Origin: Komagataeibacter intermedius TF2
Lineage (GTDB): Bacteria > Pseudomonadota > Alphaproteobacteria > Acetobacterales > Acetobacteraceae
Direction of reading: 5' to 3'
DNA: 64,000 nucleotides
Assembly: GCF_000964425.1 (NCBI RefSeq)
Contig: NZ_BANF01000010.1
Span: 1-64,000 of the forward strand
The notes beneath the pieces were generated by a model. The model saw only the letters and a program-made list of their open reading frames with translations, was not told the origin of the DNA and made no database searches. A program made the translations under genes and the position numbers. Below, in pieces: positions 2,580 through 18,438 of the stretch. Numbering within the stretch: the stretch's first letter is position 1; each line of letters begins with the position of its first letter.

Positions 2580-4280
2580 CTAGATCGTGCTGATCACGAT
2601 CTCGACAAGGTTGGGACGGCCAGATGCCATTGCGGCCTCGATCGCCGGGGCAATATCCGTCGCACGGGTAATAAGGCAGGCGTCCAGGCCATAGGACGTG
2701 GCCATGGCCTGATAATCGATCGGTGGATTACACAGGTCCATCGCCAGAAAATTCCCTTCCTGCGCGGAAATGTAGTGCGTCTGTCCGCGCATGAAGCCCT
2801 TCAACACGTTATATTCACGATTGTTCATCACCACGAAGGTCACCGGCAGGCTTTCATGCGCCGCCGTCCACAGGGCCTGCGGGGAATACAGTGCCGCACC
2901 ATCCCCAACCAGGCAGACCACCGGCTCCCGCCCCAGCCCGAGCGAGGCCCCGACCGCGGCCGGCATCCCCCACCCCAGCGCACCACCGCGCAGGAAGGAA
3001 TATTGCGCAGCCCAGTCGCTATCAAGGAACATGCGCGTATAGGAGGATGTCGCAATCGCTTCATCCACAATGGCAATCCGGGGACCAATGGCACGCACGA
3101 CCTCATGCGCGGCGACACAGGGTGCTATGACCGGGTCATCGCGGTGACGGGCCACAAGGCCCTCCGCCTCGGCACGCCTGCTGGCGCGGGCGGCGATAAT
3201 ACGATGGCGGGCTGCCGTGAATTCGGCCCGGCGGGGCTGCGTCGCCTGCTGCAGCAGGGGTAGCAGCACATCCAGTGACGCACGGATATTCCCCACCAGC
3301 GAAAGCGGGGTCTGGAATGTACGCCCCAGATCACGCACATCGGCCGATACCTGATAAACCGCGCAGCCCGGCGGCACGGGCGAGCCTTCGGAATACAGGA
3401 TGGTAATCAGCGATTTGCCACCCAGCGCGAAGATCGCGTCATAATCCGCAAGCCTGTGGGCGATGTCGGTCGCACGCGTGGGCATGTTTCCCGCCCATAA
3501 TGGGCAGGACGTCGCAAACGGAATACGCGATGGCCAGGACGCGCCATAAACCGGCGCACCAAGAATTTCGGCCACTGCCGCGACCTGTGCCGCCGCATCC
3601 GCGCCGTGGACCTCATCCCCCGCGATGATCGCCAGCCGCCCCGGCGTAATCCCCGCCAGCGCACGCGCCAGATCCGGCAGGCCGCCAGCTATGGAGTCGC
3701 GATTGATGACGGATGGGGAGCCAACATCCACATCACTGGTTTCCTCCATCACGTCCATGGGCAGCGACAGGAAGACCGGCCCGGACGGAGCGGCCATCGA
3801 ATCATTGAAGGCCCGCCGCACCAGCACAGGCAACTGGTCCGCATGCAGGACTTCCTGCGCCCATTTGACGGCAGGGGTCGCGATACTGACCAGATCCCCG
3901 AACAGCAGCGGGTCGGAAATCGTATGCCGCGAGTCCTGCTGTCCCGCCGTCACCACAAGCGGCGTCTGTGACACGCTAGCGTTCAGCAGATTGCCCATGC
4001 CATGCCCCAGCCCCCCTGCGGTGTGCAGGTTGAGGAAACCGGGACGACCCGCGGCCTGTGCATAACCATCGGCCATGGCCACTACGCTCGCTTCCTGCAG
4101 CGCGAGGATATATTTCAGGTCCGGACGGCCCTGAAGCGCATCGATCAGGGGCAGTTCCGTCGTGCCGGGATTGCCAAAAATGTAGCTAACCCCTTCACTT
4201 TCCAGAATTTCCAGCAGGATATCGGCACCCCGCCGCCCCCCTGTCCGCCGTGCTGCGACCTCAAGCGGTGTAATAGCCAT
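2580..4280 (-). CDS. Benzoylformate-decarboxylase-like thiamine diphosphate enzyme
   Basis: 566 aa with the three-domain layout of ThDP decarboxylases. The Pyr domain has 'IFGNPGTTELPL' and the cofactor Glu in 'LALQEASVVAMADGYAQ'. 'LNLHTAGGLGHGMG' keeps the His equivalent to His70 of Pseudomonas putida benzoylformate decarboxylase. The PP domain has 'GDGAALYSPQALW ... MNN', the Mg-ThDP motif. The serine equivalent to Ser26 is Thr, and the position of His281 reads 'TSCPLW', so that His is missing. The overall fold is benzoylformate-decarboxylase-like, but the substrate is uncertain; another 2-oxo acid decarboxylase or a carboligase is possible. The ATG at 4280 follows AGGGG; the longer reading to 4406 only translates the upstream operator. 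A Fur-box promoter lies 98 bases upstream, so expression is probably iron-responsive. Confidence 0.75.
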   Translation of the reverse strand: MAITPLEVAARRTGGRRGADILLEILESEGVSYIFGNPGTTELPLIDALQGRPDLKYILALQEASVVAMADGYAQAAGRPGFLNLHTAGGLGHGMGNLLNASVSQTPLVVTAGQQDSRHTISDPLLFGDLVSIATPAVKWAQEVLHADQLPVLVRRAFNDSMAAPSGPVFLSLPMDVMEETSDVDVGSPSVINRDSIAGGLPDLARALAGITPGRLAIIAGDEVHGADAAAQVAAVAEILGAPVYGASWPSRIPFATSCPLWAGNMPTRATDIAHRLADYDAIFALGGKSLITILYSEGSPVPPGCAVYQVSADVRDLGRTFQTPLSLVGNIRASLDVLLPLLQQATQPRRAEFTAARHRIIAARASRRAEAEGLVARHRDDPVIAPCVAAHEVVRAIGPRIAIVDEAIATSSYTRMFLDSDWAAQYSFLRGGALGWGMPAAVGASLGLGREPVVCLVGDGAALYSPQALWTAAHESLPVTFVVMNNREYNVLKGFMRGQTHYISAQEGNFLAMDLCNPPIDYQAMATSYGLDACLITRATDIAPAIEAAMASGRPNLVEIVISTI

Positions 4281-4377
4281 GCTGTCCCCTGCGTATGCAT
4301 TGACGGTGCGGCTATCGCACCACGTTTCTGGGACCGGGTCCACCATCGGGATAATCAGGGCAGATGCCATTTTTATC

Positions 4378-4406
4378 TTGATAATGATAATTATTATCAT
4401 TATCAA
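4378..4406. promoter_or_regulatory. Fur box with overlapping divergent promoters
   Basis: A perfect inverted repeat with 14-base arms (TTGATAATGATAAT at 4378-4391 and its complement at 4393-4406) around a single T. It contains the classical GATAATGAT units of the Fur consensus. The same 29 bases give TTGATA-17 bp-TATCAA on the + strand (-35 at 4378-4383, -10 at 4401-4406). By symmetry they give an identical promoter on the minus strand. A bound repressor would cover both -35/-10 pairs. The minus promoter would make a leader of about 90 nt for the ThDP enzyme gene; the + promoter would start near 4414. Confidence 0.82.
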
Positions 4407-4413
4407 TTTCCTT

Positions 4414-4510
4414 ACCCGTGGGTCGCCCGACAGATTCCCGATCGTCGATTTCCCAACTTGTCCACGGAACCTTACGGCATCACCCGGTTCCCGGATGATG
4501 CCGTTTTTTT
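4414..4510 (+). ncRNA. Candidate Fur-regulated small RNA
   Basis: Predicted from signals only. The + strand promoter inside the Fur box should start near A4414, and an intrinsic terminator ends at 4510, giving an RNA of about 97 nt with no credible reading frame. CCGTGG (4416-4421) can pair with CCACGG (4462-4467). This encloses pyrimidine-rich stretches (ATTCCCG, ATTTCCCAAC) that could pair with purine-rich ribosome-binding sites. Promoter repression by Fur, small size and a strong terminator are the architecture of RyhB/PrrF/NrrF-type iron-sparing RNAs. No sequence similarity to those is claimed. Confidence 0.6.
4474..4510 (+). terminator. Rho-independent terminator of the candidate small RNA
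   Basis: ACGGCATCA (4474-4482) pairs perfectly with TGATGCCGT (4496-4504). The stem extends inward past one mismatch through CCGG/CCGG to a TTC triloop, and seven T follow (4504-4510). No + strand gene ends upstream of it, so it must terminate a transcript starting in the 4.4 kb intergenic region. Confidence 0.85.
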
Positions 4511-4640
4511 ATCCGGCCTTTTCAGCCCGCAGGCATTTGGACCGGAAGGAAGGATATTTTTTCATGCCGGAGCGGGGATAATCGTACTCTTTCAATTGAC
4601 CCACGTTCCGGACGTGAAGATGATGCGGTAACACGCAGTC

Positions 4641-5108
4641 ATGAAAGTGAGCCCCTTGTCCGCTGACAGTCCCGCTACCCTGTCTGCCCTGCCATCCGAC
4701 GGGAATAACGCGGAGAATGCGCCCCTGTCGCCCGTAATCGATGCGCTGCATCGCGGCGGCCTGATTACCGCGCACCACATGGCGGCAGCCCGGTTCTGGG
4801 CCACGGATTACCGGATTGGCGTCATGGGACAGGAAGACCCGGATCTGGACAAGACATCCCTCGGCCTGTCCATGCGGCCGCTGAACGGGCGGATGGGGTC
4901 AATCAACCGTTACAGATATATTCATGACATCATTGGCCACCGCTACGAGCGGATTCTGGTCGCCACCATGATCAACAACCAGCCGATGCATGAAATCGCC
5001 TACCATGCCCGGTATGATCCCCGGCATATGGGCAGTGTGCTGGCGCTGCTGCTGGATTTCCTGACCCGGCATTATGACGCCATGCCCGGGCACCTGTGGC
5101 GCGGCTGA
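4641..5108 (+). CDS. Conserved protein of unknown function, DUF6456-like
   Basis: 155 aa, no signal peptide or membrane segment. After a variable N-terminus of about 35 residues comes 'GLITAHHMAAARFWATDYR', a basic middle with 'RYRYIHDIIGHRYERILVA', and an end 'LALLLDFLTRHYDA'. This order (xxITxxxxxAAxRF..., arginine-rich helix, ..LxLxLDxLxxHY) resembles the alphaproteobacterial DUF6456 domain, often found in DNA-associated regulators; I hold this tentatively. The ATG has only a weak ribosome-binding site. It lies downstream of the small-RNA terminator, so it probably has its own promoter or depends on read-through. Confidence 0.55.
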   Translation: MKVSPLSADSPATLSALPSDGNNAENAPLSPVIDALHRGGLITAHHMAAARFWATDYRIGVMGQEDPDLDKTSLGLSMRPLNGRMGSINRYRYIHDIIGHRYERILVATMINNQPMHEIAYHARYDPRHMGSVLALLLDFLTRHYDAMPGHLWRG

Positions 5109-5119
5109 TCCCGGATATG

Positions 5120-5152
5120 AAAAAGGGCGCCCCGCCAATGACGGGACGCCCC
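5120..5152 (-). terminator. Intrinsic terminator of glk
   Basis: Read on the minus strand, CGTCCCG/CGGGGCG-type arms form a GC-rich hairpin (5125-5129 with 5147-5151, and 5131-5134 with 5142-5145), followed by TTTTT at 5124-5120. It lies 11 bases past the glk stop and could also slow transcription arriving from the + strand gene ending at 5108. Confidence 0.8.
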
Positions 5153-5163
5153 TTCAGGCCGTA

Positions 5164-6132
5164 TCAGCGATAGGCTTCGGCAAAGGCTGCCGCCGCACCC
5201 AGCAGCCCGGGCTGGGGATAGGTAATCAGCTTGACCGGCATTTCCGACATCATGCCTTCAAACCGGCCCTTGGCCACGAAACGTTCGGCAAAACCGGAAC
5301 GGGGCAGGTGTTCGGCCAGACGCAGCCCAAGGCCACCGGCGATCACGACCGCGCTGCCCCCCTGCGCCAGGGCCAGGTCACCCGCGACCGTGCCAAGGCT
5401 GAGGCAGAAACGTTCCAGCGCCGCGGCAGCCACCGGGTCGGACCCTTCCAGCGCCATGGTCCACAGCGCCTTGTCATCACGCGCCTTGACCGACAGTTCC
5501 CCCATTTCGGCAATCGCCTCGTACAGGTTCAGCAGCCCCGGCCCCGACACCACGCGCTCGACCGATACACGCCGGTAGCGACGGCGCAGCACGCTCAGGA
5601 TCCGGTCTTCAAGCTGATCCAGCGGGGAAAAGTCGATATGGCCGCCTTCGGTCTCGCACACGAAATAACCATTCTTGCGGCGTACGATATAGGCGGATCC
5701 CAGACCGGTGCCCGGCCCTACAACGGTAATCACACCCTGTTCAGGCAGGGGCAGCTCGGGGCCGCAGATATGCTGCAGGCTGTCTTCGCCCACCTGCGCC
5801 ACGGCATGGGCCACGGCGCCGAAATCATTCACCAGGATCAGTTCGTCCACACCCAGCTTGACCGGCAGCCACGCGGGCTGGATGACCCATGGGTTATTGG
5901 TCAGCTTGAGGATGTCGCCCTTGATCGGGCAGGCCACGGCAATGCCTGCGGCCCTGGGCAGGGGACGGTCAACCACGCGGGCAAAGGCTTCCCATGCCAG
6001 CTGCAGGCTGGCGTGATCGGCACATTTCAGGGTCGTGGCGTCCCCCAGCGTGACAACCCGCCCCTGATCAACCTGGGCAATGGCAAAGCGCGCATGCGTG
6101 CCGCCAATATCAACTGCTACGATCTCTTTCAT
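5164..6132 (-). CDS. glk: Glucokinase
   Basis: 322 aa, normal for the bacterial GlcK/Glk family (ROK-unrelated, hexokinase fold). It phosphorylates glucose with ATP in the cytoplasm. Visible motifs are 'VAVDIGGTHARFAIA' (phosphate 1), 'LILVNDFGAVAHAV' with the catalytic Asp, 'VVGPGTGLGSAYI' (adenosine/phosphate 2), 'ETEGGHIDFSP' and 'VVIAGGLGLRL'. The start at 6132 gives the canonical N-terminus. Downstream is a clear terminator; upstream is a 260-base AT-richer gap with no gene, so the unit is monocistronic. In acetic acid bacteria most glucose is oxidised in the periplasm, so this serves the intracellular share feeding the pentose phosphate route. Confidence 0.95.
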   Translation of the reverse strand: MKEIVAVDIGGTHARFAIAQVDQGRVVTLGDATTLKCADHASLQLAWEAFARVVDRPLPRAAGIAVACPIKGDILKLTNNPWVIQPAWLPVKLGVDELILVNDFGAVAHAVAQVGEDSLQHICGPELPLPEQGVITVVGPGTGLGSAYIVRRKNGYFVCETEGGHIDFSPLDQLEDRILSVLRRRYRRVSVERVVSGPGLLNLYEAIAEMGELSVKARDDKALWTMALEGSDPVAAAALERFCLSLGTVAGDLALAQGGSAVVIAGGLGLRLAEHLPRSGFAERFVAKGRFEGMMSEMPVKLITYPQPGLLGAAAAFAEAYR

Positions 6133-6392
6133 GTCCGGTCACGCTCCGTGGCCATACGGCAGCTCCTTGCCCCGCTATTACAATAAAAACAGTCTGCGAT
6201 TGTGCCCTTTCCCATGCATTTTATGCAACAGAACAGGCAATTCAGGCGCCGCAGACATACCGATTAACACATCTGACCAGAAAACAAGACCAGCTATCGC
6301 GCAATTTCATTGATAAATGTCACGAAATGGCCACAATCGTTCCGATCAACATTAAAACATATTATACGGCCCCTGCCCCCACCGCAGGCAGT

Positions 6393-7190
6393 TCAGTCCA
6401 TCTGGTCGGCCTTGATGGCCGACAGGATTCGCCGCTTGAGTGGCCACGGCACCAGCGTATCCACCAGCCGCAGCACTGAAAACACGAACGGAAAGACCAG
6501 GTGCGGCCGGTTGCGGTCCACGGCACGGGCGATCCTGCGCGCGGCGGAAGGTGCGCTCTGCAGGAAGGGCTTGGCCCCCACCACGCGGCGGCTCATGGGG
6601 GTATCCACAAACCCGGGCGAAACCAGCGTCACCCCGATCCCCAGCGGGGCCAGCGCCATCTGCTGCGCCTCGGCAAAGCGTTTCAGCCCCGCCTTGGACC
6701 CGGAATAGGCCGCGGCGAATGGCAGGGCATGAAAGGCGGCAACGGAACTGATCATCACGATATGTCCCCGCCCGCGCGGAGCCATGCGCTCGGCCGCGGC
6801 GGCCGCCATGGCCGATGGCGTGGCATAATTGACCATCCCCAGGCGCAGCACGTCCTCCGCGCGTTCCACCACGTCGTCCCCGCGCCGCATGTCCCCAAGT
6901 CCCGCGGCAAGGATGGCGATATCCACCGGATGGCTGTCATCATCCTCACGCAGGGCTGCAATCGCCGCCGCCCCATCAGACAGGTCCAGCACGCGCGTAT
7001 GCACGCTGACGCCGTAACTGCGGGCGCGTACGGCCACATTTTCCAGCCGTTCGGCATTGCGCCCCCACAGCACCAGCGGCCGACCACGGGCCGCATACAG
7101 CCACGCCAGTTCCGCCCCGATCCCGCTGGATGCCCCCGTAATCAGCACATATGCCCCTTCATCCATGCGTGAACCGGACCGAACCGTCAT
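6393..7190 (-). CDS. Short-chain dehydrogenase/reductase (SDR family)
   Basis: 265 aa classical SDR. 'YVLITGASSGIGAELA' is the TGxxxGxG cofactor loop, 'LDLS' the adenine-contacting acid, and 'ISSVAAFHALPFAAAYSGSKAGLKRF' supplies the Ser, Tyr and Lys of the catalytic set. The Arg after the early strand ('WGRNAERL') suggests NADP(H) preference. The C-terminus is hydrophobic and basic ('FVFSVLRLVDTLVPWPLKRR'), as in membrane-associated SDRs of lipid metabolism, but the substrate is not predictable. The ATG at 7190 follows AAGGAAG at proper spacing. Confidence 0.85.
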   Translation of the reverse strand: MTVRSGSRMDEGAYVLITGASSGIGAELAWLYAARGRPLVLWGRNAERLENVAVRARSYGVSVHTRVLDLSDGAAAIAALREDDDSHPVDIAILAAGLGDMRRGDDVVERAEDVLRLGMVNYATPSAMAAAAAERMAPRGRGHIVMISSVAAFHALPFAAAYSGSKAGLKRFAEAQQMALAPLGIGVTLVSPGFVDTPMSRRVVGAKPFLQSAPSAARRIARAVDRNRPHLVFPFVFSVLRLVDTLVPWPLKRRILSAIKADQMD

Positions 7191-16635: not shown

Positions 16636-18438
16636 TCACGCGGATGTTTCATCCTGTTCGGGCTGCTTTAACGGAAAAACAAGGACATAGCGGGTCCCGT
16701 TTTCCTCAAACATCTGCAGTTCTCCCCCCAGTTGCCGGGCAAAACCACGGATCAGCTGCATGCCGATCCCGCTGCGCCCTTCCTCTGCCGCGGCATGGTT
16801 GCGCGCCGCCGCCATGCCCACGCCGTTATCGGCAATCCACAGGCAGGCCCGGTCGCCAGACAGCGCGCGCAGGCCAACTTCCAGCGTGCCGTGCTGGCGG
16901 TCGGGAAAGGCGTATTTGATGGTATTGCTGACCGCTTCCGTCACGATCAGGGCCAGCGGCACCGCCTGGTCCGGCACCATCAGCAGATCATCGACGCGGA
17001 TATCAAGCGTGATGCGGCTTTCGTCGGATTCACCAATGGCGTGCATGATCTGGCCGCACAGTTCGCGCACGAAACTCTGCATGTTCAGGCTGTACAGCTC
17101 GCCATCGGCGTAAAGGTAGCGGTGCAGGGTGGCCAGCGCGCGCACACGGTCACGCGCCTGCGCGAATTCCTCGCGCGCGGCGGGCTGGCGGATGCGCCCG
17201 GCCTGCAGGTTCAGCAGCGACGCCACGATCTGCAGGTTGTTCTTGACGCGATGATGCATTTCCTTGAGCAGCAGTTCCTGCCGCGCCTGCGCGCGTTCCA
17301 GCCGCTTCTCATGCCGCGCCAGCCTGCGGGTGGCCTTGCTGAAGGCATGGGCAAGCTGCCTGACCTCCAGCGGCATGGCCCAGTTGGAACGCACGTCATA
17401 CATGCCCCCCAGCTGCCACTGGTTGACGGATGCCGTCAGCTGCCGCAACGGCGTGATCACCAGTACGTCGGCGCTCTTGGATGCCCCAAGCAGGCCCGCC
17501 AGCAACAGCAGCCCGCTACTGACCAGCGATACGGCGAACATGACCACCGCATGCCGCTCCCCCGCATTGCGACGCGTCATGGTCAGGACATGTACGCCCC
17601 CCTGCACGCGACCGATGGAAAACGATCCCTCCGGCAGGGTTATGTGCGCATGGTCAGCCCCCGTCCCCAGGGTTACGCGCGCCCACTGCATGATGCGGTC
17701 GGTCGGGCGGGCGGCCCAGTTGCAGTCGGAACACAGCGGGGCTGCGGCGCGGGCCAGACTGTCCACCACCCATATCTGGATGGGCCCGTTCTGCTGCACC
17801 AGGTCCAGCCGCGGGTCACTGGCCTGCAGGATGGCGCTGCGCCACGACAGCGGCATGACCGCAGTCAGGTAACCCGGACGCGCGGGCCTGCCCGCGTCGT
17901 CATAGATGGCGGCGGAAACCGTAATCCGGAAATAACCGGGCACATGGGTCAGGGGATCGGTCAGCGCGACCATACGGACGTCGCCCTGGAAACGGGGCAT
18001 GGCATCCGCCCCCAGCGCAGGCGCATCGCCCTGCCGTCCCACGGCGGTCAGGATGTTGCCCCGGTCATCCGCCAGGGCGATCTGGCTGTAATGCCGGCCG
18101 GTCAGGGACTGCACCAGTTCAAGCATATGCCGCAGGCCCGCATCATCAAGCCGCATGCGCGACACGGCCTGCAGCAGGGAGCCGAGGTGATCGGCCTCAT
18201 GCCGCAGTTCAAGGTCGATGCGCGATACCGTCAGGTCGGTCCGCTCACCGGGTGCTTCAAGGGTGGAATGGTAACTGTGCCATGCCTGCACCGCACCGAT
18301 CAGGGCAATGGGCATGGCCGCCAGCAGGATGATCGCCATCATCCGGCCACGCACGGCGTCGAACACGCGACCGACGCGGGTAAACAGGCTCCGGTGACGG
18401 ACCTGCCTGCCGTGACCGGAAGAAGGGAACACGGACAT
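16636..18438 (-). CDS. Membrane sensor histidine kinase, HisKA_2 type (PhyK-like)
   Basis: 600 aa. One membrane segment near residues 33-50, an extracytoplasmic sensor of about 250 residues, a second segment near 300-325, a HAMP-like linker, then 'LLLKEMHHRVKNNLQIVASLL' (HisKA_2 phosphorylation box) and an HATPase ('TEAVSNTIKYAF', 'ADNGVGM', 'SGIGMQLI'). This family feeds phosphate to PhyR in the alphaproteobacterial general stress response. It begins 3 bases after nepR, consistent with an operon of anti-sigma factor and kinase. The sensor contains a CxxC pair ('LCSDCNW', about residue 241), which could be redox-active or structural. PhyR as partner is inferred from context. Confidence 0.88.
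   Translation of the reverse strand: MSVFPSSGHGRQVRHRSLFTRVGRVFDAVRGRMMAIILLAAMPIALIGAVQAWHSYHSTLEAPGERTDLTVSRIDLELRHEADHLGSLLQAVSRMRLDDAGLRHMLELVQSLTGRHYSQIALADDRGNILTAVGRQGDAPALGADAMPRFQGDVRMVALTDPLTHVPGYFRITVSAAIYDDAGRPARPGYLTAVMPLSWRSAILQASDPRLDLVQQNGPIQIWVVDSLARAAAPLCSDCNWAARPTDRIMQWARVTLGTGADHAHITLPEGSFSIGRVQGGVHVLTMTRRNAGERHAVVMFAVSLVSSGLLLLAGLLGASKSADVLVITPLRQLTASVNQWQLGGMYDVRSNWAMPLEVRQLAHAFSKATRRLARHEKRLERAQARQELLLKEMHHRVKNNLQIVASLLNLQAGRIRQPAAREEFAQARDRVRALATLHRYLYADGELYSLNMQSFVRELCGQIMHAIGESDESRITLDIRVDDLLMVPDQAVPLALIVTEAVSNTIKYAFPDRQHGTLEVGLRALSGDRACLWIADNGVGMAAARNHAAAEEGRSGIGMQLIRGFARQLGGELQMFEENGTRYVLVFPLKQPEQDETSA

Follow-up and report, generated by a model that had tools for sequence, protein, structure and literature searches.

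What lies between a perfect palindrome and a hairpin in an intergenic region of Komagataeibacter intermedius TF2? A circuit in which iron shortage induces a small RNA (sRNA) that switches off iron-rich citric acid cycle enzymes is well known from Escherichia coli and other bacteria. The original prediction, made from the letters of a 64,000-nucleotide stretch of DNA (here, the window), proposed a Fur-repressed, iron-sparing sRNA of this kind. Joint conservation in relatives, covariance matches in further genera, and target complementarity support that proposal. Specifically, we put at roughly 85% the probability that positions 4414–4511 specify a trans-acting iron-sparing sRNA that is RyhB/PrrF/NrrF-like in action and unrelated to those RNAs in sequence. 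The following features define the control region and its surroundings.

4378..4406, no strand: putative Fur-type operator, a perfect 14-1-14 palindrome (palindrome scan and similar boxes elsewhere in the genome)
4378..4406, plus strand: promoter readable inside the operator, -35 TTGATA at 4378–4383, 17 nt, weak -10 TATCAA at 4401–4406 (family-wide promoter pattern)
2580..4280, minus strand: neighboring thiamine-diphosphate enzyme gene, divergent from the operator (Pfam TPP_enzyme N, M, C)
4641..5108, plus strand: neighboring 155-aa reading frame, no family match

The operator reads TTGATAATGATAAT-T-ATTATCATTATCAA, and its 14-nt arms are 100% complementary, so the 29-bp Fur-type palindrome is exactly as first described. 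When up to three mismatches are allowed, it is the sole such palindrome in the window (both strands report the same place), with 0.00 expected from 100 shuffles. Searched genome-wide with at most three mismatches, GATAATGATAATNATTATC yields 17 matches at 11 places, compared with 1 for the reversed control. Of the ten places besides 4378–4406, we examined in context the four that deviate by no more than two bases. One of these boxes precedes fur, and the others precede genes for a heme oxygenase, for an Fe2+ transport protein, and for a protein of an unknown family. Because near-identical boxes precede fur and the heme oxygenase and Fe2+ transport genes, the 4378–4406 box very likely represents the native Fur operator. 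The genome contains three Fur-family genes above the Pfam cut-off.

A -35/-10 pair with 17-bp spacing is readable within the palindrome, but its -10 element is weak (4/6), and the TTGATA/TATCAA pair is absent from the listing of a consensus promoter scan. On the plus strand near the box, that scan instead listed ATGCCA...GATAAT at 4364–4391, from which transcription would start inside the palindrome. A loose pattern, TTGNNA and a TA hexamer 16–18 nt apart, is present upstream in 46/46 aligned family members (the alignment is described below). At the level of sequence, the predicted Fur box and promoter overlap. The divergent gene at 2580–4280 may share the operator, and with it Fur control. 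The best model for the product of that gene is benzoylformate decarboxylase, at 371 bits, under the cut-off of 493.

Downstream of the operator, the candidate RNA and its helices are as follows.

4414..4511, plus strand: putative sRNA gene copy A, ~98 nt with both ends predicted (kept in 17/18 relatives; covariance models R1 and R2)
4416..4467, plus strand: outer helix P1, 4416–4422 with 4461–4467 (covariation)
4428..4447, plus strand: inner hairpin P2, 4428–4431 with 4444–4447 (pairs constant or changed on one side)
4474..4510, plus strand: intrinsic terminator, stem 4474–4482/4496–4504, U run 4504–4510 (fold and covariation)

The strong hairpin with seven T is present as described, 67 nt beyond the operator. 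The earlier figure of about 70 nt from start to hairpin needs correction: the terminator stem begins 60 nt after the predicted start at 4414. The consensus scan did not list this terminator within 3000–6500, because the scan requires a loop of 3–8 nt and an uninterrupted stem. A chance terminator was considered and rejected. The stretch 4407–4515 folds at -36.4 kcal/mol (shuffled mean -24.7, z -3.8), and 0/200 shuffles fold as well. Single-sequence folds of four members, including that of the distant genome G158, all give P1, P2, an open linker, and the terminator.

Conservation shows how far this unit extends. A blastn search of 4281–4640 against 59 relatives finds matches in 18/18 genomes of the same genus and in 0/41 others. 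The nearest relative, K. oboediens, is 95% identical across the intergenic region. Joint conservation of promoter and terminator had been named in advance as a test, and the unit passes it: the box, the RNA body, and the terminator are present together in 17/18 other Komagataeibacter genomes. In the 18th, G005, all three are gone in one deletion, and a second copy of the RNA, discussed below as copy B, is retained. The junction lies at TTTTTATC, a repeat found beside the box and again in the U run. Recombination between the two repeats apparently removed the unit. G005 matches Komagataeibacter swingsii, in that a 300-bp stretch around copy B is identical to a record of that name, and K. swingsii (G005; loci L032, L033) presents a natural, clean deletion of copy A.

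A covariance search of other Acetobacteraceae, also suggested at the outset, finds the RNA in further genera. Model R1, built from 18 sequences, matches 16/249 genomes of the family and reveals the second copy in the same genome (copy B, G000:C750:18006-18105, matched by R1 over 18006-18103), which carries the same pairing segments. A broader model, R2, detects 33 copies in 19/19 Komagataeibacter genomes, of which 14 have two copies, 4 have only copy A, and G005 has only copy B. Across the family, R2 matches 37/397 genomes. Of these matches, 32 score at least 50 bits and span five genera: beyond Komagataeibacter, the RNA occurs in Gluconacetobacter, Novacetimonas, and two further genera. The five others, at 30–34 bits, look like chance; the two that were examined both lack the core. 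A pattern scan of the genome collection returns 61 stretches, of which Komagataeibacter, Gluconacetobacter, and Novacetimonas account for 37. The 24 outside the acetic acid bacteria were taken as chance on the basis of record titles and sequence. Alignment A3 comprises 46 sequences, namely 35 of those 37 stretches (two are incomplete) and 11 others; two further loci were omitted because they duplicate others exactly. The pattern scan requires the core, so the conservation of the core in A3 is to some extent built in; the blastn and R1 searches are free of this bias. We regard it as virtually certain that the RNA family is real.

Among the 46 sequences, 97.5% of cells pair, and double-sided change occurs at 9/19 pairs. 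Double-sided cells number 90, versus 33.5 in shuffles, with 0/500 shuffles as high. Of the five covariation measures, one (further pair types) is no higher than in the shuffles (15 versus 16.3). Two of the three helices covary strongly. In P1, 4/6 counted pairs show double-sided change, and the helix reads CCGUGG/CCACGG in copy A and UCACGG/CCGUGA in copy B. In P2, alignment pairs 20-38, 21-37, and 22-36 are kept, the outermost pair is absent in 14/46, and double-sided change was not found among the 46 sequences. The locus has the predicted makeup of the RyhB class in one respect, a short RNA with an intrinsic terminator and a conserved structure.

These patterns bear on two other accounts of the locus. 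According to one, the palindrome serves only the divergent gene at 2580–4280 and the hairpin is an unrelated terminator. The gene does start 97 nt from the box, and the half of the box on the gene side is well conserved; yet constraint and covariation run across the whole RNA body, and boxed copies occur at other loci that lack this gene, making the account very improbable. The other holds that the region encodes a small protein. No plus-strand reading frame had been thought to lie here. In fact, two open plus-strand frames cross the region (4002–4631 and 4279–4581), and a GTG at 4418 opens a short one. The idea behind the claim nevertheless survives, since one-base indels within the RNA distinguish the relatives, and the region therefore looks noncoding. 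Given these one-base gaps, a copy B without such a GTG, and constraint that follows the RNA helices, a protein-coding role is scarcely credible.

What does copy B add? In the present genome, it is flanked by the divergent, ferritin-like dps on one side and by a gene of unknown function on the other. Gluconacetobacter asukensis has one copy next to dps and the other immediately downstream of fur. Upstream of copy B is TTGCAACTGATATTCGTTTGCAATA, in the same register as the box of copy A, and this element would be its Fur box. On these sequence grounds, we are highly confident that the RNA family is controlled by Fur.

The gene that follows copy B has ~320–340 codons and is without a Pfam or NCBIfam match. 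Its copies or relatives are found at four places.

L064:1627-2601, plus strand: copy or relative of the gene following copy B
L060:1640-2596, plus strand: copy or relative of the gene following copy B
L174:580-1557, minus strand: copy or relative of the gene following copy B
L004:1718-2722, plus strand: copy or relative of the gene following copy B

A relative in the same genome (L004, by eye) has a Fur-like box of its own, and the gene looks like a member of an unnamed Fur-linked family. Structure prediction for the product of the gene beside copy B is poor (mean pLDDT 58). The upstream region of the copy B locus also contains a fluoride riboswitch (L064:304-380, minus strand; 47.5 bits against a gathering threshold of 34).

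Copy B ends ~20–30 nt before this gene in Komagataeibacter, in Novacetimonas, in the second Gluconacetobacter copy, and in g10 and g55. That arrangement is what one would expect if the RNA were a cis-acting leader, that is, a Fur-controlled 5′ region, perhaps a riboswitch, whose terminator attenuates the downstream gene. A constant position directly upstream of one gene is, however, a property of copy B and not of copy A or of the first Gluconacetobacter copy. Copy A stands alone, in that the next plus-strand frame begins 130 nt past the U run, and the gene next to the first Gluconacetobacter copy is convergent with it. No antiterminator was seen by eye, and trans complementarity, which changes in step with sdhC (see below), accounts for the conserved core. 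We consider the cis-acting leader quite unlikely as an account of the family. The closeness of copy B to the gene means that an added leader role is possible for this copy, which could therefore act also in cis.

The trans-acting reading depends on two segments of the RNA, both of which are complementary to the start regions of candidate target genes.

4443..4454, plus strand: pairing segment 2, CGUCGAUUUCCC, versus the sdhC leader at -20..-9 (complementarity)
4437..4446, plus strand: pairing segment 1, CCCGAUCGUC here and CCCAACCGUC in most copies, versus acnA codons 2–5 (complementarity)

Target tests used sdhC, aconitase-family, and superoxide dismutase genes from 11 genomes in five genera, and leuC from 10. 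In 9/11 genomes, the sdhC leader at -20..-9 is GGGAAAT(T/C)GACG, the 12-nt complement of CGUCGAUUUCCC. Contiguous pairing in these nine extends 12–13 nt and is matched by 0–1 of 1000 dinucleotide-shuffled leaders; the nine represent few independent cases, because the leaders are conserved as a block. Genome G158 departs from the block on both sides. Its RNA linker is AUCGUCGCCUCG and its sdhC leader, at the start codon, is CGAGGCGACGAU; both are altered, and together with their flanks they form 15 contiguous pairs, with 0/1000 shuffles as strong. The G158 RNA scores 36 against its own sdhC leader, compared with 16 against every one of the other ten. In G027, CGUCGAUCCCCC faces GGGGGACGACG, and pairing needs a bulged A; the contiguous score is not unusual (212/1000). 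Complementarity to sdhC is thus contiguous in 10/11 genomes and bulged in 1/11. When loops are allowed, duplex energies separate sdhC from 500 shuffles only moderately: 3–19 shuffles do as well in the nine genomes, 0 in G158, and 104 in G027. Across five genomes, GGGAAATYGAC occurs 41 times. Eight of the occurrences are the RNA genes themselves and five are sdhC leaders, one per genome. Among the 30/41 contexts that were examined, no other start-proximal site recurs in all five genomes. We strongly favor sdhC as a direct target.

In 3/5 of these genomes (L296, L288, L285), GGGAAATYGAC also appears ~17 codons inside one gene, which we take to be the cellulose synthase gene bcsD. There the motif reads conserved amino acids, so the site is probably due to the protein sequence, and bcsD was rejected as a target.

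Evidence for acnA comes from codons 2–5, GACGGTTGGG, which form a 10-nt pairing with CCCAACCGUC in 8/11 genomes (3–15 of 1000 shuffles). In the two Gluconacetobacter genomes, the pairing is 10 and 8 nt (16 and 62 of 1000), and in G027 it was not found (566 of 1000). In copy A of the window, all ten pairs are possible, two of them as G-U. The GTT and GGG codons at the site account for 13% of the Val and 9% of the Gly codons of acnA, and both are kept in 10/11 genomes. In three genomes, GACGGTTGGG occurs 16 times, with acnA among the occurrences in two. These features suggest that acnA is also a direct target, a claim that we consider fairly likely. The C-rich stretches had been proposed to address ribosome-binding sites; complementarity to the sdhC leader and, probably, to the acnA start agrees with that proposal, and predicted pairing to sdh and acn start regions is a further property of the RyhB class. 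No conserved pairing was found for leuC (10 genomes, with G017 excluded; one case at 40 of 1000) or for superoxide dismutase (11 genomes). A seven-base seed placed before ATG gave 65 and 56 matches in two genomes (controls 25 and 16) and no clear candidate.

Could the RNA be real and Fur-controlled, with its complementarity to sdhC and acnA coincidental or minor and its main targets elsewhere? Room for this idea is left by the small number of genes tested as targets (four), by the block conservation of the sdhC leaders, by the location of the acnA site within coding sequence, and by loop-allowing energies that are only moderately unusual. Against it, G158 shows joint change of the RNA and the sdhC leader, the pattern search recovered the sdhC site in 5/5 genomes, and, according to excerpts of PMC11257911, sRNAs of this type often target aconitase and succinate dehydrogenase. 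We judge the idea improbable.

The trans-acting iron-sparing reading suggests the following sequence of events. When iron is plentiful, Fur on 4378–4406 would block the promoter inside the operator. When iron falls, an RNA of ~98 nt that ends at the U run would be made. By computation, the RNA folds into P1, P2, and the terminator hairpin, leaving the C-rich linker exposed. CGUCGAUUUCCC would then bind the sdhC leader at -20..-9, within the ribosome landing site, and CCCAACCGUC would bind acnA codons 2–5; the complementarity is computed in both cases. Hfq assistance is assumed. Translation of succinate dehydrogenase and aconitase would drop, and iron would be saved. More broadly, we think it likely that this system is a RyhB-type arm of alphaproteobacterial iron control, through which Fur in acetic acid bacteria acts on succinate dehydrogenase and aconitase. 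Its sRNA family would be duplicated, with two separate pairing segments. In one lineage, the sdhC segment and its target were altered together while the acnA segment remained fixed; the commoner copy travels with an unknown gene beside dps or fur.

Acetic acid bacteria seem to have an undescribed iron-starvation sRNA, in one or two copies. Our literature search covered titles and abstract openings, with subscription papers and preprints outside its range, and among the matches listed there was no description of such an RNA. The second copy, the covariation, the named targets, and the joint change of RNA and target are new relative to the original prediction.

How does the RNA compare with known systems? 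At gathering thresholds, Rfam 15 gives 0 matches in the window. The best weak match at the RNA is Esr41 (19.7 bits versus a gathering threshold of 102), and at the loci of five relatives there is no match at the RNA. The RNA is thus no sequence member of any Rfam family tested, RyhB and NrrF included. Membership in PrrF (RF00444) was rejected: the score is 17.6 bits against a gathering threshold of 90 with the box, and there is no match without it.

Judging from excerpts of PMC6120978 and PMC11257911, the candidate shares a Fur-type operator over the promoter and a short terminated RNA with RyhB of enterobacteria, PrrF1/PrrF2 of Pseudomonas aeruginosa, NrrF of Neisseria, FsrA of Bacillus subtilis, and IsrR of Staphylococcus aureus. 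It also shares with them, here by prediction, succinate dehydrogenase and aconitase as targets. It differs from all five in having no sequence or model match, other pairing segments, and another fold. Two copies per genome recall PrrF1/PrrF2 as portrayed in the same excerpts, although the copies here are not in tandem.

Within the Alphaproteobacteria, RusT of Caulobacter crescentus is likewise an sRNA induced by iron starvation. Unlike the present candidate, RusT is under NtrYX, its authors found no Fur box, and its candidate targets are mostly outer membrane transporters (PMC11005374, in excerpt). In Caulobacter, the consulted portions of PMC6120978 and PMC11475020 describe Fur as coupling iron to sdh and acnA by binding promoters directly (activation), whereas in our reading the coupling here would run via an sRNA. 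Those portions of PMC6120978 report two sRNAs raised in a fur mutant, report no Fur box before any iron-responsive sRNA, and cite direct Fur activation of sdh, acnA, and nuo; those of PMC11475020 hold that most iron control there is probably exerted by proteins. Closer to home, the Fur network of Gluconacetobacter diazotrophicus, from the same bacterial family, uses a 19-bp Fur box and a Fur that complements an E. coli mutant, with sdh and acnA among the genes with predicted Fur sites (PMC9368920, in part); the terms "small RNA" and "RyhB" are absent from the main text of that paper.

If our reading is correct, Alphaproteobacteria also use the RyhB strategy, with an RNA of unrelated sequence, and this locus provides a compact example of coordinated change in an sRNA and its target. 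In bacteria that produce vinegar and cellulose, the RNA would tie the citric acid cycle to iron supply.
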